64,000 nt of DNA from an uncultured bacterium (lineage in GTDB: Bacteria > Desulfobacterota > GWC2-55-46). The translations under genes were made by a program, and so were the position numbers. Where the stretch lies: positions 62,001-126,000 of the forward strand of contig CAJPGC010000003.1 in NCBI GenBank assembly GCA_905339405.1. Direction: 5' to 3'. Shown piece after piece: positions 29,001-48,749 of this stretch. How positions within the stretch are numbered: the first letter of the stretch is position 1; each line of letters starts with the position of its first letter. The notes under the pieces were generated by a model that searched no databases, had not been told where the DNA came from, and was given only the letters and a program-made list of their open reading frames with translations.

Positions 29001-30828
29001 ACGCGCTGTCAGAGAGGTCGAAGACCGAGCGCACCTCCGGGAAGTCCATGCAAAGGTCCTTGAGCATGTCAGCGTACTGCGAGCCTTCGCCCGGAAAAAG
29101 AAAGGCTACCTTGCCGTACTTTACGTCCTGCTCCTCGAAAAAGTAGATGCCGCTCCTGTCGCGTATGCGCCTGCACTCCGGGTCTTTTAGCTTTCCGGCC
29201 GCGTATTCGAGCTTCTTCGCGAGGTCTTCCGTGGACGAAGCTATAAGAGAGAGCCGGTATCTGGCGTCCTTGCGCCTGCTGTTCAGGGTATAGGCTATGT
29301 CCTTTATTGCAGCTTCTTTCCCGCCGCCTCTCGCGAAGCGCGCCAGGCTCTCGGCCTCCCTTACGAGCCCCTCTTTCGTATCCGAGCCTAGGAGAAACGC
29401 CTCGGTCGGCCATAAGTCGTTGTGATTGACCCACTCCCTGTTATCGGGATGCTCTTCCAATATCGCGTGAGCGTTTATGCCCCCGAAGCCGAACGCGTTT
29501 ACGACGGCCCTCCTCGGGAAATCGCCCCTGCCGTGTATCCAGGGCCTTGTCTCTGTGTTGATGTAAAAAGGTGTCTTGTCGACCTCGAGCTTCGGGTTCG
29601 GCTTCTCGCACAATGTAGGCGGCAGCACTTTGTGATAGAGCGCTAACGACGTCTTTATGAGCCCGGCTACCCCGGCCGCCGGTATAAGATGGCTTATCAT
29701 CGATTTGACCGTGCCCAGGGCAACAGACGGCCTTCCGTCCCTTTCGCCGAAGACCCTCCTCAGCGACTGGAGCTCCGTCTCGTCTCCCATCGGCACTCCA
29801 GTGCCGTGGGCCTCCACCAGCCCGATGGTCGACGGCGCTATCTTCGCTTCGTCGTAGGCCCTCTGCATCGCGAGCGCCTGCCCCTCGACGCGCGGCGCGA
29901 GAAGACCCAAAACCCTGCCGTCGCTCGCCACGCCTACAGATTTCAGTACAGCGTATATCCTGTCGTTGTCCCTCAAGGCGTCTGATTTGCGCTTCAATAC
30001 AACGAAGCCCACCCCTTCGCCGAGGAGCGTGCCGTCGGCGGCCTCGTCAAAGGCGCGAAGCTCCTCTTTCCTCGAGAGGGCGTTTATCTGGCAGAATATC
30101 ATGAGTATCGGCGGAGGTATGTACGCGTTCACACCGCCCACTATCGCAAGGTCGTACCTGTGCGCCCCGAGGTCCCTCATACCGTGCTCGATTGCCACGA
30201 GAGAGGAGGCGCACGCGGCGTCGACTATGTAGTTCGTGCCCATGAGGTTCAGCCTGTTGGCTATGCGCCCGGCGAGCACGTTCGGCACGAGGCTCGGAGT
30301 CGTCTCGGCGGTAAACGGCGGCAGCTTGTCCTTGAGGCACTTCCTTATCCTCTTGAGCTCATCCTCTGAATAATGGGGGTTGAGCTCTCTTAAGATGTCT
30401 ATGGTCTGGTCTATCACGACCCCGTGCTGATAGAGGTTCGTGACTCCCCTGTTTATGTAGGTGCCCCTGCCGATGATGACGCCGGACTTCTCGGGGTTGA
30501 TGGTGTCCTTGTCGTAACCGGCGTCGAGCAGGGCCTCGTTCGCGACCCTAAGGGCGAGGTAATGGTCAGGCTCGCCGCCGTCTATCGACTTCGGCATGAC
30601 CCCGAACTCAAAGGGGTCGAAGGTCGCGAGACTCCCGAGATAGCCGCCTTTTTTGCAGTATATCCTGTCGTTGGAGGCAGACGACGGGTCGTAGTACCTC
30701 CCGGCCTCCCAGTCCGGCGGAGGGTCCCCGATGCAGTTGCGCTTGGAGACGATATTCCGCCAATAGGTCCTGACATCGGGCGCGCCGGGGAAGATGCACG
30801 ACATGCCTATTATAGCTATGTCCTCCAC
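26062..30828 (-). CDS. Type I polyketide/PUFA-like synthase: KS-AT-DH-PPTase
   Basis: A 1588-residue megasynthase. Residues 1-460 are a ketosynthase with Cys204 in DAACASSL, EAHGTG and SHLIPAAG as the two histidine motifs. Residues 580-900 are an acyltransferase (FLFPGEGSQY, GHSTGEY near 669). A low-complexity linker with a helical stretch follows, then a double hot-dog dehydratase (DHTLG near 1057, DPVALDAAGQ as the second acid). The C-terminal 190 residues are a Sfp-type phosphopantetheinyl transferase (GVDLEIERP near 1474, WSAKEAASKS near 1512). The order recalls PfaB/C-type PUFA synthases with a built-in PPTase. Its start overlaps the upstream synthase by 13 bp, so they must act together. 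Confidence 0.93.
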   Translation of the reverse strand: MEDIAIIGMSCIFPGAPDVRTYWRNIVSKRNCIGDPPPDWEAGRYYDPSSASNDRIYCKKGGYLGSLATFDPFEFGVMPKSIDGGEPDHYLALRVANEALLDAGYDKDTINPEKSGVIIGRGTYINRGVTNLYQHGVVIDQTIDILRELNPHYSEDELKRIRKCLKDKLPPFTAETTPSLVPNVLAGRIANRLNLMGTNYIVDAACASSLVAIEHGMRDLGAHRYDLAIVGGVNAYIPPPILMIFCQINALSRKEELRAFDEAADGTLLGEGVGFVVLKRKSDALRDNDRIYAVLKSVGVASDGRVLGLLAPRVEGQALAMQRAYDEAKIAPSTIGLVEAHGTGVPMGDETELQSLRRVFGERDGRPSVALGTVKSMISHLIPAAGVAGLIKTSLALYHKVLPPTLCEKPNPKLEVDKTPFYINTETRPWIHGRGDFPRRAVVNAFGFGGINAHAILEEHPDNREWVNHNDLWPTEAFLLGSDTKEGLVREAESLARFARGGGKEAAIKDIAYTLNSRRKDARYRLSLIASSTEDLAKKLEYAAGKLKDPECRRIRDRSGIYFFEEQDVKYGKVAFLFPGEGSQYADMLKDLCMDFPEVRSVFDLSDSAFIKRKREYLPSHTIFPLPLGQDTSSRLWAMDSAAESVFTANMAMLKMMELLGIKADALCGHSTGEYNALLASGMLDIKDGDSFIDFVLGVNSVYEGLASKGAIPEGILLSAGAADRKDIEEFVAGSAGRAWVAMENCPNQFVLCGPEEEMARAEAELKPKGVLCMRLPFSRAYHTPLFEGVSGALREHFEKVKVKAPAIETYSCATASPFPKDADGIRELATSQWSKKVRFVETIEAMYASGVRTFIEVGPRGNLTAFVEDVLKKRAHLAIASNLHRRPGLQQLNELVCLMHANHVTIDPAALYRHRSPKKMDIDGAEPQKQARQKVNINTLLPRIALGKDAEQFRKAAPGSPVKPQESAPPPIDESPEGVMREYMRNMEDFLKGQEEVLKAFLGGPEKAAAPVGAKERATTPTPSRHRFISEVVSATTNEAIAICRLDPKKDRFLLDHTLGRKVSDADASLTALPVVPLTFSMEILGAAGSLLKPGQKLVGMKEVRGYRWIGLDEGKRTLQAHAVLKGNGEVEVKLRDADPANPAAIRPGLPIVEGVMVFAPEYPKAPAADSRPLKSARPSRWAGKDLYADFMFHGPSLQAVESMDEWGEDGSSAVIRAMPMEGLFSDPEVEFLSDPVALDAAGQVIAYWTSDHLESGFHIFPFRLEKLELFAPCMEYPEKVRCRARIELVGPDQVRSDIDLIDGSGLRYRLTGWWDKRFEMPESYYKVRASVVGNSLATPVEGLLPGNAKCVLIDSIPAGFLEGHDRIWERVLGHLVLSKNEKEEFAALSAQPKRRAEWLLGRAAAKDAVRALIKETRGKEILPADIEVVKAASGAPGVKIACWDGQAPVISISHSGGRALAAAVFADGVGVDLEIERPLDKDFEAGAFSVQELETLRSGGPLDNATMLRAWSAKEAASKSVGLGLLGHQREIEITKVDRAAWTFEVKVPAKLADGKKDIFLLAATTLTGGVVSAGVINNRSDKQHA

Positions 30829-33800
30829 GGCCCTCCCCCGATTACTATTTCCAGCTCTCCTTTTTTGCCGTCGACTATCTCATCTACGAAGAGCCTTCGC
30901 CCGTCAACAGGCGGCACAAGCTCTATGCCTTTTTCCGCGAACTGGCTCCGTACTTCTGGTGTGACCATGCCTGTCTTGTCCCAGGGGCCCCAATGTACCG
31001 CGAGCACCCTCGCGGGCCAGCGCCTGTCCATGTAGCGGCCTATGCCCTTGACAGCTTCGTTGGCGGCGGCGTAATCGCCCTGCCCCCTGTTGCCGAAAAA
31101 GCCCGCAACCGACGTGAAAAACGCCATGAACTTCAAGGAGGCGGGCCTCAGCTTCTCAAGGAATATGAGCGCGCCGTCCACCTTCGTGTCGAATACCCTG
31201 TCAAAAGACTCGGGCGTCTTGTCTTCGATGAGCTTGTCCTCGATGACCCCCGCGCCGTGTACGACGCCGTCTATCCTGCCGAAGTCCCTGTATATGCCGT
31301 CTATGAGGCTGCCGAAAGCCGCCTCGTCCCTTACGTCCGCTGCGTAGTAGTGCACTTCCGAGCCTGCGTCCTTTATCTTCCTGAGATTCCGGCCCACTTC
31401 CCTTTCAGCCAATATCCGCGACAGTTCGCGCTCTATGTCGGTGACAGCGAACTTCACGCCCCTTGCGCGCATATCGGCGATGATGGCTGGTTTAAGCTCT
31501 TTGTCCTCGACCCCGGCCGTAGCTGCAGATTCTTTTGACGGGGCGCTTCTGCCAATCAAGATGAGCTTCGGGCCATATCTCTCGGCCATCTCGAGGGCTA
31601 TCTCAGCGGTAATGCCCCTGGCGCCTCCGGTGATGACGATGACCCAGTCTTTCTGTATCGCATGGCTCTTGCCGTTGGCGCTTATATCTTCGGCCACCGC
31701 CTTTATTATCTTCCTGCGTCCGCCCTCGAACCTCACCTCTACCGGGCCATCGCTTGCCATCTCTGAAAGGACAAGGCTCGCGGCCTTTTCCGGCAAGGCC
31801 TCTTTTTCGAAAGTCACAGCCTTGCAGCGCACGCCGGGCCACTCTATAGCGGCGGTCTTGAGGAAGCCTGCCGCGCCGTCCTGCCCGGGAAGGCAATCGC
31901 CTTCTGTGTTGTCTGCCATGACCGAGAAGAGCCAGCCGAAGCCGCTTTTCGCGGCCTCATCGAGATCGGTTTTCAACGCCTTCGAAAGGAAGTAGAGGCC
32001 TTTTACGTCGGAGCGGAGCTCTTTTTTCCTGGACTTGAAATCGGCGGCAGAACTTTTGCGCATCGGCCTCAAGTGTATAAGCCCTTCTACCCGGCCCCTC
32101 GCAGAGCGTATCCTGCCTATCGCCTCGCTTACGGCGTCCCAGTCGGAAAGGTCGGTTATCTTCTCGGCCCTCTTTGAACCGTTGCCAGCACCTATAATGA
32201 GCGCCTTGCCGCCGTTTGCTTCTATCCGTGAGGCGAGCGCGTCAGCATAGCCGTCGCCGTCGTCGGTAATGAGAACCAGCCCGCTGCCGAATACGGGCGT
32301 TTTCGCCGGAACTGGCGCGTCGATTTCCTTAAGGACGAACCTCGGGGCCCCTGAGGAAGAAGGCTTCACCGGAGCGGGCTGAGATTGCGGCCTTTCTGCG
32401 CGGCTTGCTTCGCCGTTCCCGAGTACGCGAAGCCCCATGTCGGCAACGCCCTTCATCGTCTTTATCCTTGAAAGCTCGTCGACGGCGGCCTTGAGCTTTC
32501 CGCCTGCTTCTCCTTCGAAAGACTTCGCGAAGGCGTTCATTATCTCGACGCGCTTTATCGAATCTATCCCGAGCTCGGCTTCCATGTCGACTTCTGTGTT
32601 GAGCATCTCAACGGGGTAGCCCGTCCTTTCGGCGGCCACCTTGAGGAGCGCGTTCATCAGCTCTTTGGCCGTATGGCAAGGAGTGGCCGCTTGCGGCGCG
32701 TTTTCAAGCTTACCGCCTTTGGAATCTCCAAGCGCGCCGAGGCTTCTTTTAACTATCGCGTCGAGGGTCTTGAGCTTTGAGAGCTCGTCAGTCATGGCGC
32801 GAAGGGCCTCTTTGCCGGGGCCCTCGATTGATTTCACGAAGCCGTTCATTATCTCGACGCGCTTTATCGAATCTATCCCGAGCTCGGCTTCCATGTCGAC
32901 TTCGGTGTTAAGCATCTCAACGGGGTAGCCTGTCCTTTCGGCGGCTACCTTGAGGAGCGCGTCCATCAGCTCTTTGGCCGTATGGCGCGGAGCGGCCGCA
33001 GGGGCGGCGGCTGGAGCGTTTTCAATCTGCTGGCCGGATTCTCCGAGCGCGCCGAGGCTTCTTTCTACTATCGCGTCGAGTGTCTTGAGTTTCGAGAGCT
33101 CGTCCGTGATTGCGCGCATGGCCTCTCTTTGACCGCCGTCGAAAGTCTTGACAAAGGCGTTCATTATCTCGACCCGTTTTATCGAATCGATTCCGAGCTC
33201 GGCCTCCATGTCGACTTTCGTGTTGAGCATCTCGACAGGGTAGCCCGTCCTCTCGGCGGCTATGCGCAGCAGCTCCGCTGAAACCGTCTCTTTTGAATGG
33301 CCCCTTTTGGCCGCCGCTTGAGGGGCGGCCACTTGCGGAACCAGTTCCTTTTTCTCGACGGGCTTTTCCGTTTTAACTATTGGCACCTGTCCGGATTGAA
33401 TAGCCACCGGAGCTTTCATCGGCGCGTAATCTTCCGGGGCCGAGCCCAGGTACGACATCATGACTTCCTTTTGTGTCTCAAGGAAACGGGACATCATCTG
33501 CTGGAACTGCATCAGCACTTCGTGCGATTGCCTGTTCGACGCGAACGGAGCGGCGGCCGCCTGCCCTGGCAGTATCTCATGCCTGGCCTTGAGCTGCGCC
33601 TCCCCCTTCTTCGCCATCACGAACCTCTCGGCGGGCCAGCGCGATGAAGCCCTGCCCTGGCGCACTGACGAGCCGTTCACGACCCAGGCCGTCGCGCTCC
33701 CCTTGCCCGCTTCAGCAAGTTTGGAGAGGTCGAGCCTGTTGAGCTTACGGCCCCTGTAGAGCCTGTCTAGCGACAGGTTTACGCCGTTTGCGGCGAGCTG

Positions 33801-36800
33801 CCCGAGGGCCTTCATCATCTGTTGGAGAGATGCACCTGACGCGTCGACCGGCACCGGGAGAAGCTCCCTGCCTTCGAGTATCTGCTTCGTCAGGTTCGTA
33901 AGAACGCTTCCAGGGCCGCACTCGATAAATATGCGCGCGCCGGAGGCGTACATAGACTCTATCTCGTCGACGAACCTCACCGGCCTCACTATGTGCTCGA
34001 CAAGGCTCGTCCTAAGGGTATCTGCGTCAGCCGGGTGCGGCATCGCGGAATTGTTCGAATAGACGTCCATAGAAGGGGCTGACATGCCTATGGTCGAGAG
34101 GAAACCGGAAAACCTTGCCTTGGCGGGCGCAACCAGGGGCGAATGGAAGGCCCCCGCAACCGGTATCTGCTGCGACTGGAGGCCTTTTGCCTCGAGCGCG
34201 GCAGCGGCTTCCTTCAACGCTTCCCTGCCGCCGGATATGACGGTCTGCTTCGGAGAGTTTATGTTCGCTACGACAACGCCCTTTACAGCCTTTAGAGCCT
34301 CTTCTACCTCGGCCGCTCCGGCCTTCACCGCGGCCATCGAGCCGAGGTCAGAGCCTTCGGCCGCTTCTATTATCGAGCGGCCCCTCGCTTCCGACACCCT
34401 GTAGAGGTCCTCTTCCGTGAATACTCCCGCAGCAGCGAGGGCCGTGTACTCTCCATAGCTGTGGCCAGCCGACATATCTGGGCGTACGCCAAAAGAGCTC
34501 AAGAGCCTGAACGCGCCGAAAGAGGCCGCGCCGAGGGCGCTCTGCGCGATGTTCGTCCTCGCGAGCTCCTTGCGGGCCGCCTTCTCCTCTTCAGGGCTGA
34601 AGTGCGGCACAGGGAATATGTAATCCGAAAGCCTTCCGTTCACGCGCTCCGAAAGGACGCAGTCGGCCTTCTCAAAGGCCTCCCGCGCTTCCCTGAAGTG
34701 CATCGCCAACTCGGAGAGCATCCCCGGGTATTGCGAGCCCTGGCCGGGAAAGAGGAAGGCCACCTTGCCTTTTACCGGGTTTTCGGTGTAATAGATGCCC
34801 CTGGGGTCTGAAATATCCTTCGCCCCTCCGTTGAGCGCTTTTATCGCGGAGAGCGCCTTTTCCATGAGGTCCTCGATCGACGAGGCGACTATCGCCAGTT
34901 TGTACCGGGCCTCTTTCGAGGAATTTTCCAGGTGCACGGTATAGGCGAGCTCTGAGAGGCTTACGCCCCTGGCACCCGTAAGCTGCTCCTTGAAAGCGGA
35001 GAGTGCCGCTGCCATTTGAGAGGCGCTGTCAGCGGACCATATGAAGAGCTCGTGCTTGAGGCTGCCCGCCATGCACTCGGAGCCGTACTCCTCGAGCACC
35101 GCGTGGAAGTTGGTCCCTCCGAAGCCGAAGGCGTTAACACCGGCCCTTCTCGGGAACTCGTTTGCCATCCAGGGCCTCGCCTCGATGTTGAGATAGAGCG
35201 GGCCTGTCTTGAAGTCAGCCTTGGGGTTTGGCTTGTCTACGCCCGCGGTTGGCGGCATTGTCTTGTAATAGAGAGAAAGAGCGGCCTTCAATATGCCGGC
35301 GAGCCCGGCCGCGCCCTTTGTATGGCCTATCATCGATTTCACCGAGCCTATGGCGCAGCCCCTCACGGGAGCGCCGTTCTCCTTCAGAAGAAGGCTTGCC
35401 GACTCGGCCTCTGTCTGGTCGCCCACGACGGTGCCGGTGCCGTGCGCCTCTATGAGGCCGAGCGTGGCCGGTGAGAAGCCCGCCTTTGAGTAGGCCCTCT
35501 TCATCGCCGCGAGCTGGCCCATCGGGTTGGGGGCGGTCATGCCCTTTTGCCTGCCGTCGCTCGACCCGGCGACTGATTTAATGACAGCGTATATCCTGTC
35601 GCCGTCGCGCTCCGCGTCGGCGAGCCTCTTTAGTACAAGGAATACCACGCCCTCGCTTATGACCGTGCCGTCGGCCTTCTCGTCGAAGACGCTGCATTTG
35701 CCGCTCTTGGAGAGCGCGTGGGTCTTGCAGAAGCACAGATATGCGAAGGGGTTCTGGCCAGCGTCCGCTCCGCCCACGAGCACGGTGTCGCTCGTGCCCG
35801 ACTCAAGCTCCCTGCACCCGTCGTACAGGGCCGCGAGAGAAGAGGCGCACGCGGCATCTACCGTATAGTTCACCCCTCCCAGGTTGAACCTGTTCGCGAC
35901 CCTCCCGGCAAGCACGTTCATGAGGATGCCGGGGAAGGAGTCCTCGGTCCAGTCAGGCAGGAACTTGAAGGCCTCTTCAGGAGATTCGAAGAACGACGTA
36001 AGGGCCGAGCGCAGCACGTATGCCTGCCCGAGCTCCCCGATGCCGCCGCCGGTGCCTATGATGACCGACGTGCTCTCGCGGTCAAAGCCTTTTTCAAGGA
36101 AGCCCGCGTCCTTCAAGGCGGCACGGGCCGCCTCAAGCGTAAGCAGGTGCAAAGGCTCTATCGATTTCAGAGTGCTCGGCGGCATGCCGTAGACAAGCGG
36201 GTCAAAGGGGACGTCCTCGAGAAAGCCGCCAATCGTCGAATAGACCCTGTCCTTCGTCTCGGGGTCCTTATCGAAGTACTGCCTCGTGTCCCACCTGTCG
36301 GCCGGGACCTCTCTTATCGAAATCTTCTTGCCGAGGATGTTCTCCCAGTACTTGCCAGCGTCAAGCGCCCCCGGAAGAAGGCAGGAGGCCCCGACTATCG
36401 CTATGTCCGATCTTGAGCCGCATTCGACTTCCCTTTTCGAAGCCACAAGCGCGGTGGAGGCTTCCGAGACCTCCTCATGGAGCTCTTTTATGGTTGTTGC
36501 CCTCTCGCGGCAGGCCGCGAGCTGCCCGACCATGAAAAGCCCTTCCCTTTTCTGCATCTCCGGGTCAACTGGCACGAGATAGGGCTGGCCTTTTTCTCCG
36601 GCGCGCCTGTTCCTGTCGAGCCCCTTCGAGGCTATCCTCGACTTTCCGAGGATAAGCTCCTCGAGGGTCTTCCTCACCTCTTCCGCGGCGGCCCCTTCGG
36701 CGCGCATCTTTTTTTTCAAATTATTGAACGAGTCCGCGAACGGGCCCTCAGTCGACCTGACCGAGTGGCCCGGGCTTATCTCAAGCACCCGTGTGACTTT

Positions 36801-38465
36801 GCAGGCTATGGCATTCTCCTGGAAGACCGGAGAGATGGCCCCGGTAGCGGTTATCTCCTCAGTGAACAGGTATGCCGTTCCGAGCAGCACGCCTGCTTTC
36901 ACGCCTTTTTTCGCAAGGGGGCCCATGATGACGGCACACATCGCGGCTGAGACAGAGTCGTGTATACCGCCAGCGAAAAGTATCTCGAACTCGCCGGGCC
37001 TGTGCTGGCCGGACTTGATGAGAGATTCGAGCTTCCTTACCATCCCCTCCCATAATACGAATGAGGTCTTGGGGCCGATGTGGCCGCCGCACTCGTTGCC
37101 CTCGAATATGAAACGCCTCAGCCCCTCCTCGACGAACATCTCCAATATCGAAGCGGACTGCACATGGGTAAAGGTCTTTATGCCGAGCGATTCGAGCTCT
37201 TTTGCCTGGGCTGGCATGCCTCCGGCAAGCACCGCGTAAGCCGGTGAAAAAAGGGAGAGCGCCTTGAGCTGTTCCCTGTAAAGCTCCTCCGGGTTGAAAC
37301 CGAGTAGACCCACGCCCCAGGGCCTCTCACCCAGCGCTGAGGCAGTCTCCTTGAGGATCCCTTCGGCTTCGTCTTTTTTCAGTGTTGAGATGGCTATGAA
37401 AGGCAGGCCGTTGTTCCTGGCGACTTCTTTGGCAAAGGCCGGGCAGTCGCTTACGCGTGCCATGGGCCCCTGAAAGACAGGGAAGTCGACCCCTATGGAC
37501 TTTGCCAGCGGAGCGCCCTTCGCCAGCGGCTTCGCTGTTTTGGCAGAGGAGACGTGCCAGGCAAGAGAGGCCTTCAACGCCCTGAATGCCTTCTCAACGG
37601 TCGCGTATTTGGAAAAACTGGACGCGAACGAGGCGTCCTGGCCGAGCGGCCAAAGCTGGCCGTCTTCCCAGCCGACGAGGCCCAGCATGAACTCATGCCA
37701 TTCATCCGGCGTGGGTGCGGAAGCCTCTTTGGCATTCATTTTTTCAATAGACGGGTTTCCCGGCCTCGCGTAGACCCTCCAGGGGCAACCGAAGTCAAGG
37801 CCCGGCAAGGCGGTCTCGCTGCCGTCCATTCTCGAAACGGCCGATTTGACGACATCTTTTACAGAAGATTCTTCAAGGAGAAGCAGCTGGGAGTCGAGCA
37901 CGGCCCCTGAGGCGCCTGCCATGTAACAGGCGGCTATCGTGGAGAGCCCCACTCCGCCATGCGCCCAGACGGGTATAGTCACCTTGCCTGCCAGCTCCTG
38001 GAGGAGTACAAAAGAGGTCAGCTCTCCGGCCGGGCCAGCGGCCTCTGTTCCCCTGGCAACTATCCCGTCAAAGCCGTCCTTCTGGGCCTTGAGCGCCTCG
38101 TCAAGCGAGCGCGCCTCTTGAAAGACCCGCACCCCCTTGCCGCGTAAAAAGCGCAGAAGGCCGGAGACCTTAATGTCCTGTTTTCTTGAGGTAATTATGA
38201 CAAGGCGGATGTTTTCGGAAAGGATGCCTGTTATGGCATCTGCCCTGGATGCGTCTATTCTTATGCCGAGGGAGCCTTTTTTACCCGAAAGACGGTTTAA
38301 GGCAGCCGCGATGGCGTCAGTGCGGACGAGCTCCAGGTCCAGCACACCTGTGTTGCCGGAGCTTGCGGCTGCCAGCGGTATGTCTGGGTCTGCCGTACAC
38401 GGAGGAGAGTAGGCGGCCAGGCTGAAAGAGCCGTATGTATTTGTTAACTCTGGAAAAATTGCCAT
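30816..38465 (-). CDS. Giant PfaA-like synthase: NPD-NPD-KS-AT-ACP-ACP-ACP-KR
   Basis: About 2549 residues from the ATG at 38465 (CAGGTG upstream); an in-frame TTG at 38489 is possible. Residues 1-250 look like a degenerate nitronate-monooxygenase (NPD/FabK-like) half, and 310-620 like a full one (QGPMARVSD, NECGGHIG with the catalytic His near 458), which should supply enoyl reduction as PfaD does. Ketosynthase follows (DAACASSL near 872, EAHGTGT, GHTKGAAG), then acyltransferase (GHSYGEY near 1335), three near-identical ACPs (GIDSIK serines near 1759, 1865 and 1968) and a ketoreductase (ITGGARGIT near 2280, GDYAAAN near 2465). With the second synthase it has all domains for iterative, fully reducing chain growth. 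Confidence 0.93.
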   Translation of the reverse strand: MAIFPELTNTYGSFSLAAYSPPCTADPDIPLAAASSGNTGVLDLELVRTDAIAAALNRLSGKKGSLGIRIDASRADAITGILSENIRLVIITSRKQDIKVSGLLRFLRGKGVRVFQEARSLDEALKAQKDGFDGIVARGTEAAGPAGELTSFVLLQELAGKVTIPVWAHGGVGLSTIAACYMAGASGAVLDSQLLLLEESSVKDVVKSAVSRMDGSETALPGLDFGCPWRVYARPGNPSIEKMNAKEASAPTPDEWHEFMLGLVGWEDGQLWPLGQDASFASSFSKYATVEKAFRALKASLAWHVSSAKTAKPLAKGAPLAKSIGVDFPVFQGPMARVSDCPAFAKEVARNNGLPFIAISTLKKDEAEGILKETASALGERPWGVGLLGFNPEELYREQLKALSLFSPAYAVLAGGMPAQAKELESLGIKTFTHVQSASILEMFVEEGLRRFIFEGNECGGHIGPKTSFVLWEGMVRKLESLIKSGQHRPGEFEILFAGGIHDSVSAAMCAVIMGPLAKKGVKAGVLLGTAYLFTEEITATGAISPVFQENAIACKVTRVLEISPGHSVRSTEGPFADSFNNLKKKMRAEGAAAEEVRKTLEELILGKSRIASKGLDRNRRAGEKGQPYLVPVDPEMQKREGLFMVGQLAACRERATTIKELHEEVSEASTALVASKREVECGSRSDIAIVGASCLLPGALDAGKYWENILGKKISIREVPADRWDTRQYFDKDPETKDRVYSTIGGFLEDVPFDPLVYGMPPSTLKSIEPLHLLTLEAARAALKDAGFLEKGFDRESTSVIIGTGGGIGELGQAYVLRSALTSFFESPEEAFKFLPDWTEDSFPGILMNVLAGRVANRFNLGGVNYTVDAACASSLAALYDGCRELESGTSDTVLVGGADAGQNPFAYLCFCKTHALSKSGKCSVFDEKADGTVISEGVVFLVLKRLADAERDGDRIYAVIKSVAGSSDGRQKGMTAPNPMGQLAAMKRAYSKAGFSPATLGLIEAHGTGTVVGDQTEAESASLLLKENGAPVRGCAIGSVKSMIGHTKGAAGLAGILKAALSLYYKTMPPTAGVDKPNPKADFKTGPLYLNIEARPWMANEFPRRAGVNAFGFGGTNFHAVLEEYGSECMAGSLKHELFIWSADSASQMAAALSAFKEQLTGARGVSLSELAYTVHLENSSKEARYKLAIVASSIEDLMEKALSAIKALNGGAKDISDPRGIYYTENPVKGKVAFLFPGQGSQYPGMLSELAMHFREAREAFEKADCVLSERVNGRLSDYIFPVPHFSPEEEKAARKELARTNIAQSALGAASFGAFRLLSSFGVRPDMSAGHSYGEYTALAAAGVFTEEDLYRVSEARGRSIIEAAEGSDLGSMAAVKAGAAEVEEALKAVKGVVVANINSPKQTVISGGREALKEAAAALEAKGLQSQQIPVAGAFHSPLVAPAKARFSGFLSTIGMSAPSMDVYSNNSAMPHPADADTLRTSLVEHIVRPVRFVDEIESMYASGARIFIECGPGSVLTNLTKQILEGRELLPVPVDASGASLQQMMKALGQLAANGVNLSLDRLYRGRKLNRLDLSKLAEAGKGSATAWVVNGSSVRQGRASSRWPAERFVMAKKGEAQLKARHEILPGQAAAAPFASNRQSHEVLMQFQQMMSRFLETQKEVMMSYLGSAPEDYAPMKAPVAIQSGQVPIVKTEKPVEKKELVPQVAAPQAAAKRGHSKETVSAELLRIAAERTGYPVEMLNTKVDMEAELGIDSIKRVEIMNAFVKTFDGGQREAMRAITDELSKLKTLDAIVERSLGALGESGQQIENAPAAAPAAAPRHTAKELMDALLKVAAERTGYPVEMLNTEVDMEAELGIDSIKRVEIMNGFVKSIEGPGKEALRAMTDELSKLKTLDAIVKRSLGALGDSKGGKLENAPQAATPCHTAKELMNALLKVAAERTGYPVEMLNTEVDMEAELGIDSIKRVEIMNAFAKSFEGEAGGKLKAAVDELSRIKTMKGVADMGLRVLGNGEASRAERPQSQPAPVKPSSSGAPRFVLKEIDAPVPAKTPVFGSGLVLITDDGDGYADALASRIEANGGKALIIGAGNGSKRAEKITDLSDWDAVSEAIGRIRSARGRVEGLIHLRPMRKSSAADFKSRKKELRSDVKGLYFLSKALKTDLDEAAKSGFGWLFSVMADNTEGDCLPGQDGAAGFLKTAAIEWPGVRCKAVTFEKEALPEKAASLVLSEMASDGPVEVRFEGGRRKIIKAVAEDISANGKSHAIQKDWVIVITGGARGITAEIALEMAERYGPKLILIGRSAPSKESAATAGVEDKELKPAIIADMRARGVKFAVTDIERELSRILAEREVGRNLRKIKDAGSEVHYYAADVRDEAAFGSLIDGIYRDFGRIDGVVHGAGVIEDKLIEDKTPESFDRVFDTKVDGALIFLEKLRPASLKFMAFFTSVAGFFGNRGQGDYAAANEAVKGIGRYMDRRWPARVLAVHWGPWDKTGMVTPEVRSQFAEKGIELVPPVDGRRLFVDEIVDGKKGELEIVIGGGPWRT
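32500..33270 (-). repeat. Three tandem ACP-coding repeats
   Basis: The segment starting with TTCATTATCTCGAC (plus strand) recurs at 32536, 32845 and 33160, giving periods of 309 and 315 bases (103 and 105 codons). The copies are nearly identical over about 100 bases around the phosphopantetheine serine, so recent duplication or gene conversion is likely. Tandem ACPs are a hallmark of PUFA synthases. Confidence 0.9.
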
Positions 38466-38489
38466 AGCATTCACCTGCGGCGTCAACAA

Positions 38490-41639: not shown

Positions 41640-41661
41640 ATCATTCACCATGTCGCTTTTT

Positions 41662-41698
41662 TAGCTACGATTGTAGCTAAATCAGCAACAGTTGTCAA
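41662..41698 (-). promoter_or_regulatory. Promoter with palindromic operator for the MNT/HEPN operon
   Basis: On the minus strand TTGACA (41693-41698), a 17-base spacer and TACAAT (41670-41675). The -10 box lies inside the perfect inverted repeat TAGCTAC-N4-GTAGCTA (41662-41679), a likely operator for the winged-helix antitoxin. Confidence 0.75.
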
Positions 41699-41731
41699 GT
41701 CAGGATTATTTGAGAATTTGTCGCGGATTGT

Positions 41732-41783
41732 GCAGACGCTGTCTGCAATTTTTCATTATGTAATTGGCCAGACGCTGTCTGGC
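41732..41783. repeat. Pair of CAGACGCTGTCTG palindromes
   Basis: GCAGACGCTGTCTGC at 41732-41746 and GCCAGACGCTGTCTGGC at 41767-41783 share a 13-base core 35 bases apart. The second is followed by TTTT. They lie between the integrase stop and the MNT promoter, so they may be integrase terminators or binding sites. Confidence 0.6.
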
Positions 41784-41874
41784 TTTTCTGAGAAAATGAA
41801 GGAGTAGCCAATTACTGTCTATTCTATCGGCCGATAGAGGTTAATGAATTATCATGCAAATAGCGCCCTTTATA

Positions 41875-43092
41875 TTATTCATCACTCAGCTTTTTTAGAC
41901 CAGCTCGGCTACTCAACTCCACAACCTGGCCCTGCTTGCTGAAAGCTATTCTCTGATTTTCAATGGTGGAATGGGCGTATTTGAGGGTCGTCCTTATGTC
42001 GGTATGACCGAGGATGTCGCCGATGGATTTAAGGTCAGCCCCGTCTTTAAGCAGGTTCGAAGCGAGGGAATGGCGCGTTGCATTGTAGAGCGGCAGGTCC
42101 AGCTTTTTTGCCGTTTGCACCTCAGCCCATATCTTGTTTATGGTATTCTGCGCGTAAGGCCTATTGGTGCGCGGGTTGAGAAAAACGAACGCCTCGGGAT
42201 GTTTGCCACTGCAATGCTCCTTTAAAAGCGTCAGTACAACTGGGTTAATGGCCCTCGGCCTTGATACCTTGCCCTTCACCCTTTCCCTTATGATCCTGTC
42301 CGAGTAAGTCCTTAAGACAATAAAGCATTCGTTTTCAAAATCTATATCCCTGACCTTCAAGGCCCTGGCTTCTCCTGGCCTTATGCCCTGAAAGGCGAGA
42401 AAGGTGAATATGGGCCTGTCGCTTTCTGGAATGGCATTGAGGAGTTCATGCTGGGTGACCCTGTCGATCCAGCGTGGGGCCTTCCTGTCGAGGGTTACTG
42501 TTGGGAAGGCAGGCTTTTTCTCAATCTTATCGAGCCGGCGAAGGATATTGAAGAAGTTCTCAAGCGCGTTTATAATATTTTTGATGTACTTAAGGCTTAA
42601 CCCTGACGGCAGCTTCTCATAGAACTGCTGTATGTGGTATGTCCTGATCTCGCGCACGTCAATGCCTTTGAAAGACTTGAGATAGAACTCGTCTTTGTAA
42701 CGTTTGAGGCACCTTGTATAACTTTGAGCGAGATTTCCTTTCTCCCTTTCCTTGTCCTTGCTCTCGTACCAGGCCTCGATGAGAGTCTCAAAAAGAAAGG
42801 TCTTCAGGTCCGCTGATACGTATTTCGATGGGTCGAAGATGTGCTGGTCGATCTCGTAGCGAATAGCTTCGAGGACTCTCGCGGCTCTCCGGTGGCTGTC
42901 GAGAAGATGGCCGTGACGGTCGGAGTATATTTTGATGCGCCCGTGCCTCTTTACGTAAATGTCAATAAAGCACCGCCCGGGCGTTGTTTTGCACTTCTTA
43001 CAACCCAGCGGATTCCCCTTGAACGGACCTCGGCACTTGGGGCACTTTTCCTTTGTCCTTATTGTCCCAGACATGCTTAAAGTATCGTCCAT
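41875..43092 (-). CDS. int: Tyrosine recombinase/integrase with N-terminal zinc ribbon
   Basis: About 405 residues from the ATG at 43092. An N-terminal zinc ribbon (CPKCRGPFKGNPLGCKKC) precedes an SAM-like core-binding domain and a catalytic domain. Catalytic residues visible are Arg in GIRPGEARALKVRDIDF, His/Arg in NATRHSLASNLL, and His/Tyr in LGHTDIRTTLKYAH. This is the integrase expected to catalyse insertion at the tRNA-Ser attachment site 1.4 kb away. The island genes share its lower GC. No excisionase is recognised nearby. The upstream in-frame TTG at 43113 overlaps an SD-like AAGGAAAAGG and is less likely to be the start. Confidence 0.93.
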   Translation of the reverse strand: MDDTLSMSGTIRTKEKCPKCRGPFKGNPLGCKKCKTTPGRCFIDIYVKRHGRIKIYSDRHGHLLDSHRRAARVLEAIRYEIDQHIFDPSKYVSADLKTFLFETLIEAWYESKDKEREKGNLAQSYTRCLKRYKDEFYLKSFKGIDVREIRTYHIQQFYEKLPSGLSLKYIKNIINALENFFNILRRLDKIEKKPAFPTVTLDRKAPRWIDRVTQHELLNAIPESDRPIFTFLAFQGIRPGEARALKVRDIDFENECFIVLRTYSDRIIRERVKGKVSRPRAINPVVLTLLKEHCSGKHPEAFVFLNPRTNRPYAQNTINKIWAEVQTAKKLDLPLYNATRHSLASNLLKDGADLKSIGDILGHTDIRTTLKYAHSTIENQRIAFSKQGQVVELSSRAGLKKLSDE

Positions 43093-43374
43093 CTGCCTTT
43101 TCCTTGTCAACACAGAAAAACTCTACCCGTAGCCACCATCGCCGCTATCCGACGTCGGGTGGCGCCCTTTCGTAAAGCCTCCAGAAAGGTATTACCTCCG
43201 AATGAGGAATTTACGATGCCTTGGACAAAAAAAATCGTCGAACTGGGGTAATTTCGTACCATGTCCGGCAGAATGGATTTTATTAATTTAAAGTGAGGTT
43301 ACCTGAGGCAGACGTACTGAAAGGTAAGAGGCTGATTATCAATCTGTTTTCCAACAGAAAAGGGGTTCCGTACC

Positions 43375-46227
43375 TTAATCTTTTAACATCTTCAAAAGCC
43401 TTTCTATCTCGTTTTCCTTTTCCTCGTTTATAATTGCAAGCAGGATGCTCTTCCAATTATTCCGGCCTCCGTCATTGCCCAGTTCAGCGTAAAATTTCTT
43501 TTGTATCTTCTCAATAAGACCGCCGTCTCCTGAACCAGGCGCTTTTCTATCCGCAAGAATTTTATATAACGATTCAAAGCTACCCTCCAGCTTCCTGTGT
43601 ACAGCCTCCCTCTTCATCCCGGCATCGTCGAATTTGATAAGCCGTTTTATCTGCTCGTTAGTGGGAAGGGTTGTCGCCGGCTTTATTTTCTTTCTCAGAA
43701 AATTGAGCAGCTCCGGCGTTGTCAACGCGTTGATTTCGACCCTGCGACTGCGACACCGGTCATCTTTTTTGATTTGCTTTTTCCTGCTCATCTTGCCTAT
43801 ATCCACGAAAAAAAACCTTTTTTCCTCATCGGATAGCTTATTGAAGAGTTCATTGTATGTTTTCCTGGACTCATAGACCTCTGCATCGAACGCTTTTATA
43901 TCTCCGTTTCCATCAAACTCAACCTTTTTAAGATCCAAAAGGTCGGCATAAGTAAGGCCTATGTCGATAACGTTCAGTGGCCGCTCAAATGTATGGCCGC
44001 CCTCAGCTATTCTTTCGTGTATCAGGTAACCGCTCAGGTCGCAGTCGTGCAGGACGTACACCTCCATGCCGCGGGAGATGAAAAACTCCATGAGTGTCTT
44101 CTGAGCCCTTGTGCTGAACCCCTGCCCCAGGATGAGCGCGAGGCCGAGCTCGTCGAGAATACCTGAGTTCTTGAGCACTTCGCTGAAGCCCTGCTTCTCT
44201 ATAAAGAGGACTTTTTTGCGCTCGAGTTCATACGGAAGGTCAAATTCCAGACGCGATGATTCGAACCTGGCAGGGACGATTCTGGATTCGCACTCAGTTA
44301 AAGAGGAAAATCTCTTAATAAGCTCTGCCGTGTCTTTTGTTCCGAGGGGGACCTCGGTCGTGGAAATCGGGTCGTAGAAGAAGCCGCGCCGTTCCAGGAG
44401 TATCTTTTCCTGAAGCCATGGCATTTTCTTGTAGAACTCTGTCAGGATTTCGTTCCTGAACCTGTTGGAATCGTGACCGGTCAAGCTTATCTCATGGCCG
44501 GTATTCATGTTTACGATTCGTCTGACAGAATAAAATACCTGCCTTACGAATGATTGACACTCCCAATTTCCTGTAGCTTCCTTTCCTCCCTCAAGAAAAT
44601 ACCGGCGCATCAATTCTATCTTCGAGTATTTTCTTTTCCCAACCGGCGACTTCGCCGTTTTTCCATTTTTCTGTAATCGTCTTACCTCCCTGACAACGTC
44701 ATGTACAAGGAACTCGGTCAGTTTTATAAGTTTTGCTTTAGGGCTGATCTCCTCCTTTGCCTCCGAACCCCGTTTCCATTTCTTAGCGGCGTCGTCAAAA
44801 AAATCGTCATCGTCCATCTCCCCAAGGTAGATATCCGCCTTTGACTTATCATGGAATTCTATGGCAGGGGAGATTAGATGGATAAACAGAGTGTACCCCG
44901 TGAGCAACTCATCAAAAAAATACGCCCTGTTCAGCAACTCGCCAAACTCCGATACAAGATATTTGCCATCGCAGAAATCAATAAGATCTTCATCCCACTT
45001 GAAAGGCATGGGTCTGTAAACGATGGAGTGGTTTACCGCAGCCAGAACCCTGTTCCGCGATGCAGCATCAGAGGCGTGATTCTCTTTAAGGCCGCCAAAA
45101 ATCTTCTCGATTAGTTCTCGCTCGATTTTCCTGTCAGCGATTGTAGTTTTTGGATATTCTTTTTTCTCGAGGTCCTTTGCAAGGAAGCCTTCGATCACGA
45201 AAGGTATGGTTGCTCCATTCCTCCTCAGTTTGCCTGCGGCCATCTTGTAACGAAGACCCTTTCCATAAATCTTCCTAAAGATACTTTTCCCGACCGTCTT
45301 TTTCCCGAACAATCTGTGGTCCGGCGCTCCTGTAGTCTTCTTGAGGCTTTCATAAAGACTTCTTATTGATTCCTCATCCGGTCTCCCTTCCCTGAAAAGA
45401 CCTTTGAGTTTTTTGTACTTTGATATCGGAAGATTTCCAGAGACATCGGAGAAGACTGAACAGAATTGTTTTATGGTCTCGCGTGTGTTGTTCTGGTACC
45501 TTAGCACAAGAAGCGACATAAAAGACTCAAGGGCATAGTAATGCACTGAATTGTTGTATTTTTTTAACCTTGTTCCAGCTCTTGCCGTATTATCTACCGA
45601 CGGAAAATCGATTTCACCGTCATTGCCGGAGACATATCGAAAATCTACGCATGGATTAACGAGCCTGTACGCCTCGATGGTCTCGATGACCTCTTCTTTA
45701 CTTATCTCCACCCCAGATATATAGACGCCGCTTTCAAAACTTGTGTCCTCGATATATTTTATGAATCCCCTGCCCATCTCTTGTTCACCCAACGCAAGAG
45801 AGACACGATCAGGTCTGTATGTGATTTTCTTGCCGTCACAGACAAAGGACAGCCCGTAATCTTTCACGCAGCATATTCCGATGATGGTTTTCAGGGCATT
45901 GCCCTGCGCACCTCGCGCGATCGCACGGTAGCTTCTCTTCGAGGATACGAAGTGGTCGAAATCATAAATCCTGATTAGGGCCTTTTCAGGGATACCGCCA
46001 GCGCTGTCGCAGATTCCAAACTCTTGTGACTCCTTTGAATGGATGATTTTGATGCGCTTCTCCCGAACTTTCAGCTCATCAAGCGCATCCAGGGAATTGT
46101 CGATCAACTCCTTCAGAAAGACCCTGTGCCACTCGCTTTCTGTCAGGCCGGTCGTTGTCTCAAGCCCCTTGCGCGTGAAATACTCGCTGACGCGTTTCTC
46201 CGCGAGCAAGAGTTTTTTACTGCTCAT
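43375..46227 (-). CDS. Single-chain type IIB DNA topoisomerase-like protein (fused Topo VI B and A, Topo VIII-like)
   Basis: A 950-residue protein. Residues 30-130 are a GHKL ATPase: ELIDNSLDA (Glu40, Asn44, Asp47), DSAGG (74-78), GAQGNA (106-111). Residues 330-410 resemble a transducer (AAVNHSIVYRP). A winged-helix region carries VRQVFYSVRR with the likely catalytic Tyr566 (compare RDIYY of Spo11/Topo VI A). A Toprim-like domain follows: Glu677 (LFIEKQG) and Asp728/Asp730 (HDCDLSG). This B-A order in one chain is the layout of Topo VIII, known from plasmids and integrated elements, but at 950 residues it is longer. AAGGACC precedes the ATG. It sits beside the integrase. Activity is unproven; a role in element maintenance or transfer is inferred. 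Confidence 0.82.
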   Translation of the reverse strand: MSSKKLLLAEKRVSEYFTRKGLETTTGLTESEWHRVFLKELIDNSLDALDELKVREKRIKIIHSKESQEFGICDSAGGIPEKALIRIYDFDHFVSSKRSYRAIARGAQGNALKTIIGICCVKDYGLSFVCDGKKITYRPDRVSLALGEQEMGRGFIKYIEDTSFESGVYISGVEISKEEVIETIEAYRLVNPCVDFRYVSGNDGEIDFPSVDNTARAGTRLKKYNNSVHYYALESFMSLLVLRYQNNTRETIKQFCSVFSDVSGNLPISKYKKLKGLFREGRPDEESIRSLYESLKKTTGAPDHRLFGKKTVGKSIFRKIYGKGLRYKMAAGKLRRNGATIPFVIEGFLAKDLEKKEYPKTTIADRKIERELIEKIFGGLKENHASDAASRNRVLAAVNHSIVYRPMPFKWDEDLIDFCDGKYLVSEFGELLNRAYFFDELLTGYTLFIHLISPAIEFHDKSKADIYLGEMDDDDFFDDAAKKWKRGSEAKEEISPKAKLIKLTEFLVHDVVREVRRLQKNGKTAKSPVGKRKYSKIELMRRYFLEGGKEATGNWECQSFVRQVFYSVRRIVNMNTGHEISLTGHDSNRFRNEILTEFYKKMPWLQEKILLERRGFFYDPISTTEVPLGTKDTAELIKRFSSLTECESRIVPARFESSRLEFDLPYELERKKVLFIEKQGFSEVLKNSGILDELGLALILGQGFSTRAQKTLMEFFISRGMEVYVLHDCDLSGYLIHERIAEGGHTFERPLNVIDIGLTYADLLDLKKVEFDGNGDIKAFDAEVYESRKTYNELFNKLSDEEKRFFFVDIGKMSRKKQIKKDDRCRSRRVEINALTTPELLNFLRKKIKPATTLPTNEQIKRLIKFDDAGMKREAVHRKLEGSFESLYKILADRKAPGSGDGGLIEKIQKKFYAELGNDGGRNNWKSILLAIINEEKENEIERLLKMLKD

Positions 46228-47364: not shown

Positions 47365-47745
47365 ATGAATCAGGAAAAATATGTCGCAACCGGACTCAGG
47401 CTGGTCAAAGGCCTCATCGACCATTTTCAGTGCGTGTTTCTGAAGACCCTCTTTAACGGTTTCAGCGATAAAAAACGCCTTCAGTGGCTTGAGTGGACAT
47501 GTCACACCCTTTACCCGGAGACGAGATGGATGAAGCTGGACCGGTGGATGGAAGGGATGTTCAGAGGCGACATGAACAGAAGTCCAGGTAAGGTGGCTTC
47601 GATGAGCGTCAACTACTTCAGGATGAAATCAAGGATGTATCCGTTCCTGGTAAAAATGGCTCAGAGGATTAAAAACAGGGTTTTGATGAGGCAGCGGAGG
47701 CACCAGGAGGAATATGCCAGCCAGGAAGACGAGTGGCAGGGTTGA
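47365..47745 (+). CDS. Small helical protein of unknown family (paralog 1 of 3)
   Basis: A 126-residue protein with AAGGA upstream of the ATG. Sequence recalls its two downstream neighbours: FLKTLFNGFSDKKRLQWLEW, YPETRWMKLDRWMEGMFRGDM, then a basic end PFLVKMAQRIKNRVLMRQRRH. The pattern FL..L..GFS(D/E)..RLQW, YP..W..L...ME..F..DM and PFLVK.AQR.K.R is shared by all three. The protein is helical and basic at the C-terminus, so nucleic acid or membrane binding is possible, but I do not recognise the family. It lies in the integrated island between the topoisomerase and the toxin-antitoxin pair. Confidence 0.75.
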   Translation: MNQEKYVATGLRLVKGLIDHFQCVFLKTLFNGFSDKKRLQWLEWTCHTLYPETRWMKLDRWMEGMFRGDMNRSPGKVASMSVNYFRMKSRMYPFLVKMAQRIKNRVLMRQRRHQEEYASQEDEWQG

Positions 47746-47751
47746 CGTTTG

Positions 47752-47787
47752 CCCTTTTCAGCGGTTTGGTGCGTTTGGCGGTTCATA
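47752..47787 (+). repeat. Downstream repeat of paralog 1
   Basis: TTCAGCGGTTTGGTGCGTTT followed by GGCGGTTC; the related TTCAGCGCGTTTGGTGCGTT stretch lies after paralog 3 (48715-48750). Shared flanks support duplication of a whole unit. Confidence 0.55.
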
Positions 47788-47886
47788 GGTTTTGTCATTG
47801 AAGCATTATTATGCTCGACTGGGTTGTCTATCACGCTTCCTGTCATATCTGCGTCACCCGGTAAGTGAGTAGATTGAGAACTTTAG

Positions 47887-47905
47887 GGTAATACATATTT
47901 GGAGC
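47887..47905 (+). promoter_or_regulatory. Shared upstream element, copy 2
   Basis: GGTAATACATATTTGGAGC, one mismatch from the copy at 47119, 47 bases before the start of paralog 2. Confidence 0.45.
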
Positions 47906-47951
47906 CTTTGAGGAACGATTAACTTAACCCTTAAACTAAAGGAGGTTTCCC

Positions 47952-48323
47952 ATGACACAGGAAAAAAACGCAATCACTGCCGCCAGGATGATCAAGTCTG
48001 TAGATGATCATCATCAAAAGCTTTTTATCGAGGGTCTTCTTGCAGGGTTCAGTGAAGCCCAGCGCCTTCAGTGGATGCAGTTGGTTTGTGAGATGACCTA
48101 TCCCGATCTCGTATGGGATGATCTGGAGGCACTGATGGAGAAAAATTTCGAGAAGGACATGAAAAAGACCCCATCGGATGTGGCGTCCTTATGCCAGCGC
48201 CACTTTGAAATGAGCCCCAAGACGCTGCCTTTTCTCGTAAAGGTAGCTCAGCGGGTAAAACTAAGGGTAAGAACACGGATGAGAAGGCATCCTGACAAGC
48301 AACAAAAAGCACGGGAGGATTGA
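47952..48323 (+). CDS. Small helical protein of unknown family (paralog 2 of 3)
   Basis: A 123-residue protein with AAAGGAGG before the ATG. It aligns with paralog 1 over its whole length: LFIEGLLAGFSEAQRLQWMQ, YPDLVWDDLEALMEKNFEKDMKKTPSDVAS, PFLVKVAQRVKLRVRTRMRRH. Its TGA ends one base before the ATG of paralog 3, so the two are translationally coupled. The basic C-terminus (arginine/lysine every third or fourth residue) suggests an amphipathic helix. Function unknown. Confidence 0.8.
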   Translation: MTQEKNAITAARMIKSVDDHHQKLFIEGLLAGFSEAQRLQWMQLVCEMTYPDLVWDDLEALMEKNFEKDMKKTPSDVASLCQRHFEMSPKTLPFLVKVAQRVKLRVRTRMRRHPDKQQKARED

Positions 48324-48324
48324 T

Positions 48325-48749
48325 ATGAGGACCAATTTAAAGGAAAGGGCAGGGCGTCTTGCGAGGTATGTAATCCGTCTGGATGAGATCCATCAGAGGC
48401 ATTTTATCTCAACCCTGTTCGAGTGCTTTAGCGAAAAAGATCGTTTTAAACGGCTCGAGTGGTCAGCCACTCGGTATACCCCAAAAGCAAAGGGCTCAAG
48501 AGCAACAACTGGATGGAAAAAGTCTTTACACAGGACATGAAGAAGACCCCGATGGGGGTGGTTTCCATGTGCAGACATTACTTTGGAATCAATTCAAAGA
48601 TGATGCCGTTCCTTATCAAGACGGAGCAGAGGATTAAAATGAGGATAAGAATGAGACGGGCAGGCACCCGAAGAAACCTGCAGACTCGGAGACCGTGGAG
48701 GCTTAAGGCCGGGCCCCCTTCAGCGCGTTTGGTGCGTTTGGTGGTTTAG
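48325..48749 (+). pseudogene. Frameshifted third paralog of the small-protein family
   Basis: The frame opens at ATG 48325 (GGGAGG upstream) with RHFISTLFECFSEKDRFKRLEW, which aligns with paralogs 1 and 2, but after the tryptophan near 48462 it runs into unrelated sequence and stops at 48540. The homology continues in the next frame (VSHSVYPKSKGLKSNNWMEK, then VFTQDMKKTPMGVVSMCRHY and PFLIKTEQRIKMRIRMRR) to the end near 48665. A single missing G would restore the frame. Either the copy is inactivated, there is a base-calling error, or a frameshift is used. Confidence 0.75.

Follow-up and report, generated by a model that had tools for sequence, protein, structure and literature searches.

A probable deep-branching, single-chain Topo VIII-type topoisomerase encoded beside a tyrosine integrase in an uncultured Desulfobacterota bacterium

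The locus and the encoded protein

The window analysed here is a 64,000-nucleotide stretch of a contig from an uncultured bacterium of the Desulfobacterota, whose GC content drops at about 38.5 kb, from 59% to 44-50% beyond that point. The high-GC flank of the island so marked holds the gene of a multi-domain synthase; ketosynthase, acyltransferase and several carrier domains are seen in it, and, read by eye, it resembles a polyunsaturated fatty acid synthase subunit. Within the island, an uninterrupted open reading frame that starts with ATG behind a Shine-Dalgarno-like AAGGA encodes a predicted topoisomerase (Table 1). Downstream, after 261 bp, comes a tyrosine integrase gene of the same orientation, and the neighbouring genes encode MNT-HEPN, Fic, a DrmD/HmaA-like helicase, a sacsin-like ATPase, HmaC and a DUF1156 methylase.

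Table 1. Coordinates of features in the window and at the related loci discussed in the text
Feature	Sequence	Coordinates	Strand	Details
Topo VIII-type single-chain type IIB topoisomerase	window	43375..46227	-	950 aa
GHKL ATPase domain	window	45544..46197	-	residues about 11-228; NF003218 match, AF2 with Foldseek to Top6B, invariant residues
All-helical H2TH-like region	window	45265..45543	-	residues about 229-321; family profile against S. shibatae Top6B 2zbk_B
Transducer domain	window	44803..45264	-	residues about 322-475; invariant Lys463
Winged-helix (5Y-CAP) domain	window	44308..44640	-	residues about 530-640; Tyr566 in VRQVFYSVRR; Foldseek to Top6A/Spo11
Toprim domain	window	43681..44214	-	residues about 672-849; E677, D728, D730, E831; PF21180/NF003335
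Tyrosine integrase	window	41875..43113	-	412 aa; PF00589 E 6e-24, phrog_1 E 4e-44
Multi-domain synthase	window	30816-38489		2557 aa
Inverted repeat	window	41725-41785		two copies of CAGACGCTGTCTG, 36 bp apart
Tandem paralogs	window	47365-48749		126 and 123 aa, third copy frame-broken
Defence-rich stretch	window, on into L118	50962-64000
Split B and A genes, Thermodesulfovibrionia	L019	6989-8392 and 8389-9489
Element with split Topo VIII (G222)	L014	5839-19926		14,040 bp
Cyanobacterial members	L039	6950-9457
	L056	2576-5170
	L088	6938-9448
	L079	6953-9457
	L041	6965-9081
Topo VIII-type genes on phage contigs	L104	6974-9385
	L107	6109-8571
	L108	6977-9469
P. polymyxa Topo VIII, pPPM1a	NC_017543	313419-315674		751 aa

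The first-pass annotation had proposed a single-chain enzyme of the Topo VI type with its key residues intact, and both claims stand, as the one frame holds GHKL, transducer, winged-helix and Toprim domains. The GHKL motifs consist of the N-box KELIDNSLD (residues 39-47, with E40, D43 and N44), D74 and G78, and RGAQGNAL (residues 105-112); in the second half, Tyr566, E677, D728 and D730 are all found. Glu831 and, in the transducer, Lys463, which lines up with the corresponding lysine of Topo VI, are further key residues absent from the earlier list. Profile matches are weak and fall in the correct places, with NF003218 (Top6B) at residues 13-112 (E 2.3e-6) and PF21180 (Top6A Toprim) at residues 673-745 (E 4.7e-4); NF003335 (Top6A) matches at E 7e-5, and the Top6A Toprim matches span residues 668-745. 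Across the 2.65-Mb host genome this frame is the sole match to PF21180, and among 14 control genomes the profile matched in four archaea only.

In a 30-sequence family alignment, K39, E40, D43, N44, D74, G78, R105, G106, G109 and N110 are invariant in the first half and K463, Y566, E677, D728, D730 and E831 in the second, as are R562 and R569 of the winged helix; the conservation of Tyr566, Glu677 and Asp728 in orthologs, with which the annotation was to stand or fall, is thus observed. The key residues are kept in nearly all of about 80 relatives. Since the genome and viral scans were baited with KEL(V/I)DN, and those of viral contigs additionally with RGxxGN, the conservation of these two motifs among the scanned sequences partly reflects how they were selected; the bait leaves that of the tyrosine and the Toprim residues unaffected, and relatives found by bait-free tblastn carry the same motifs. 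Taken together, the motif set, profile matches and invariant residues are far beyond chance. The protein is apparently a full and active type IIB topoisomerase on one chain, and the intact frame and residues argue that the gene is under selection.

Structure prediction points in the same direction. A family profile searched against the PDB matched S. shibatae Top6B through the GHKL, H2TH and transducer regions (E 1.3e-33) and, at E 2.4e-14, 1d3y, a crystal structure of Top6A. The AF2 model of the full chain is of modest confidence (pLDDT 70.6, pTM 0.50), with helices at residues 233-321 in the H2TH-like region and low-confidence segments at residues about 355-390 and 407-442 within the transducer; its 16 best Foldseek matches in the PDB are all Top6B (best E 1.9e-16), at low TM-scores against known structures. 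Residues 530-950, modelled separately (pLDDT 77, pTM 0.75), gave seven confident matches, all of them to Top6A/Spo11 (E 1e-4 to 0.02) and with low TM-scores of 0.2-0.4, so that a Topo VIA-like fold is recovered. A different placing of the winged helix against the Toprim domain may explain these low scores. As modelled, the first half is Top6B-like and the second Top6A/Spo11-like.

Two peculiarities that had been attributed to the protein do not survive comparison with its relatives. Its motif III, GAQGNA, had been called divergent, and yet RGxxGN(A/G)L is the consensus of the Topo VIII relatives, including the P. polymyxa enzyme (RGALGNGL); we use this motif as a Topo VIII signature observed in the present analysis, not as a published definition. 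Likewise, the fused relatives are 703 to 1005 aa long, among which 950 aa is large and no outlier.

Relatives and phylogenetic placement

Searches by tblastn found plasmid-borne relatives in Pseudomonas (two megaplasmids), Synechococcus elongatus PCC 11801 and Halalkalicoccus jeotgali, and a better placed relative, G354, used as query, also found a plasmid protein of Paenibacillus polymyxa M1. The gene for the latter, on pPPM1a, is presumably that of the Topo VIII reportedly characterised by Gadelle et al. (2014). When genome and viral collections were scanned, they yielded 80 and 18 loci, respectively, a few archaeal Topo VI pairs among them. The protein aligns end to end with its relatives, including plasmid, phage and integrated copies and the P. 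polymyxa plasmid Topo VIII, at an identity of only about 20-25% to other family members; even its nearest relatives are below 40%. No match to the topoisomerase was found in the INPHARED phage collection or in PHROGs.

The closest relative is a pair of genes in a Thermodesulfovibrionia (Nitrospirota) MAG, at 33% and 35% identity, followed by an excisionase-like HTH gene and a tyrosine integrase. Unlike the protein studied here, it is split into B and A genes, which overlap by 4 bp. The split form occurs in 25 of about 80 relatives, and the fused or split state changes at least 13 times over the tree.

Topo VIII-type genes also lie on three phage contigs, two of which (IMG/VR contigs L107 and L108) carry the copy near genes for head, neck and terminase proteins; in the Lachnospiraceae group the copy adjoins a ClpX-like gene and a primase. 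In the reviews consulted, Topo VIII is placed on plasmids and integrated elements, and phages are named for Mini-A alone. In a cyanobacterial branch, from Calothrix, Symploca, Nodosilinea and Xenococcus, the N-box of the GHKL domain and RGALGN are retained and the catalytic tyrosine and the Toprim motifs are lost, which leaves an ATPase whose cleavage half is dead or has been replaced.

Among known enzymes, the nearest kind is Topo VIII, as the annotation had supposed. The P. polymyxa enzyme (Gadelle et al. 2014; Takahashi et al. 2020; via PMC7614492, PMC8185306 and PMC8084294) aligns over its full length (two BLASTP segments, E 2e-14 and 2e-7) and has in common the one-chain domain order, the catalytic residues, RGxxGN(A/G)L and, most likely, the mobile setting; it differs in size, the present protein having inserts in the transducer, the inter-domain linkers and the C-terminal part, and, at about 23% identity, the two fall apart in the tree, the present protein belonging to a separate deep clade. 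Fusion of the B and A parts on one chain, which is usual and not universal in Topo VIII, is found in the 950-residue frame. Topo VI (PDB 2zbk, 2q2e, 9o8p, 1d3y and 1mx0) is alike in its GHKL-H2TH-transducer and winged helix-Toprim folds, tyrosine, acidic residues and transducer lysine. It differs in its two separate subunits (Top6A and Top6B), in being a housekeeping gene and in motif III, where Ile or Leu replaces the Asn (Asn110) present in every Topo VIII relative of a 49-row tree. The scores of the present protein are far below the Topo VI family cut-offs (15.4 against 380.7 bits for top6b; 21.8 against 424 for Top6A). The Mini-A proteins, viral and consisting of an A subunit only, have the Topo VIA-like core in common and are without the ATPase half; the presence of GHKL and transducer domains sets the protein apart from them.

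Trees were computed with five Topo VI pairs as outgroup, in quick searches without bootstrap. The five Topo VI sequences are split from all Topo VIII-type sequences at 100. The protein, a fused relative from the same phylum (G224) and the Thermodesulfovibrionia pair form a clade at 99, which groups with the Lachnospiraceae/phage group at 96-98, and neither grouping falls within the bulk of Topo VIII. A topology that joins the clade to Topo VI before the remaining Topo VIIIs gave p 0.18 in the AU test, a value that does not reject it; given this and the long branches, the clade may be nested in Topo VIII or sister to it. Of the new subfamily that the annotation had thought possible, what is seen is a deep, well supported clade of three members, which might hold that rank.

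The mobile element and the surrounding island

The mobile context proposed for the gene is supported by the adjacent integrase, and integrases also lie near 41 of the 104 relatives' loci (loci of about 3-20 kb); the topoisomerase most likely sits with the integrase on a small integrative element. Comparison with genomes of the same family brackets the insertion at about 41.76 and 47.03 kb, which leaves room for the topoisomerase and integrase alone. Direct repeats of at least 16 bp flanking the gene, or shorter ones near the borders, did not rise above shuffled sequence, and no tRNA genes were found in the window; as attachment repeats were not found around this copy, the borders are bracketed only. 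The G224 copy is flanked by a 27-bp tRNA-like repeat, which was considered as an attachment pair and dropped because an intact tRNA-Arg lies inside the interval.

Elsewhere in the family, the split Topo VIII of G222 lies inside an element bounded by perfect 48-bp repeats of a tRNA-Arg(ccg) 3' end, together with genes for an integrase, a terminase large subunit, a replication initiator and a primase-helicase. A capsid gene was not recognised in it, and by its gene content it looks like a phage satellite. In G354, the topoisomerase has a primase-helicase on one side and a regulator on the other, and an integrase is present as well.

The small tandem paralogs of the window, which have no match in Pfam or PHROGs, were entertained as element genes because one stands beside the L019 topoisomerase; they were rejected since they occur in same-family genomes in which no such topoisomerase was found, adjoining a SEC-C gene in two cases. 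Upstream of the MNT-HEPN gene pair, the inverted repeat CAGACGCTGTCTG may be an operator, and the adjoining stretch 41643-41759 recurs near the SEC-C gene in same-family genomes. Parts of the defence-rich island also recur in such genomes. Farther along, the defence-rich stretch encodes a DrmD-like SNF2 helicase (PADLOC DrmD, 1124 bits), HmaC (781 bits), the DUF1156 methylase, a 2511-aa protein in which two ATPase regions are of the sacsin type, and a second SNF2 helicase that ends in a NO VEIN domain; a complete DISARM set was not noted within it.

Interpretation and significance

It is most plausible, at a probability of roughly 0.85 for the explanation as a whole, that the locus encodes a fused (B-A) type IIB enzyme of the Topo VIII group, from a deep lineage, carried together with the tyrosine integrase by a small integrative element that lies in a variable island rich in defence genes. 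The protein would accordingly be a distant, early-branching member of the known Topo VIII kind and no new type of enzyme. From the directly observed domain order, residue conservation, fold match, relatives and integrase linkage, we infer a dimeric, active enzyme serving the element. Two chains would form a homodimer whose GHKL gate would shut upon ATP binding, with Lys463 sensing the bound nucleotide; the two Tyr566 residues would cleave a bound duplex in both strands, assisted by Mg2+ at E677, D728, D730 and E831, and a second duplex would pass through. The enzyme would then reseal the break and return to its starting state on ATP hydrolysis. This two-gate strand passage is drawn from the known mechanism of Topo VI and the intact residues. 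The likely service would be to relax and unlink the excised circle or the replication products of the element. The activities reported for Topo VIII are weak and variable (PMC7614492).

Less probably, the clade is a type IIB subfamily of its own, sister to Topo VIII and perhaps including the Lachnospiraceae/phage group. Its high support, its position outside most of Topo VIII, the tolerated grouping with Topo VI and the low identity to other members speak for such a rank, whereas the GN(A/G)L motif, the domain order, the fused form and the integrase linkage are common to Topo VIII, and deep placement is unreliable on long branches. A bolder version, in which the clade and the Lachnospiraceae/phage group make up a third subfamily between Topo VI and Topo VIII, living on phages and on minimal integrative elements of topoisomerase, excisionase and integrase, appears rather doubtful.

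It is unlikely that the gene is an inactive, decaying remnant of a dead element. Neither attachment sites nor a replication gene were found beside it, many Topo VIII enzymes look partly inactivated according to the review (PMC7614492), and the cyanobacterial branch illustrates such loss of catalytic residues; set against this are 950 stop-free codons with every catalytic residue kept at such distance from the nearest relatives. A defence role, which the annotation had floated, is supported by none of the analyses made here: that the protein is a type IIB-derived nuclease which cleaves invading DNA in the manner of the Wadjet/MksG or Gabija Toprim nucleases seems very improbable. The defence genes listed above do adjoin it, and Toprim dimers akin to Top6A serve in defence (PMC13040014, PMC10123090). 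However, the topoisomerase matched no PADLOC family at E up to 1, it retains the catalytic tyrosine and full ATPase and transducer machinery, and MksG differs in the 5Y-CAP and catalytic tyrosine (PMC10123090). Moreover, the relatives are found with integrases, replication and phage genes, settings that suggest mobile-element maintenance and not a defence system, and the nearby defence genes are best read as ordinary neighbours on a common island.

Topo VIII has been thinly studied, with 77 bacterial members counted in a 2021 review and three tested biochemically, the plasmid-borne P. polymyxa enzyme being one of them (PMC7614492). A deep-branching and apparently intact member, whose closest relative comes in two pieces, provides a handle on how fused and two-subunit forms interconvert, and a way to ask of what use an enzyme like Topo VI is to a mobile element. 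With its phage-borne copies, split operons and catalytically dead cyanobacterial forms, the broader set assembled here enlarges the family available for studies on the origin of Topo VI and Spo11.
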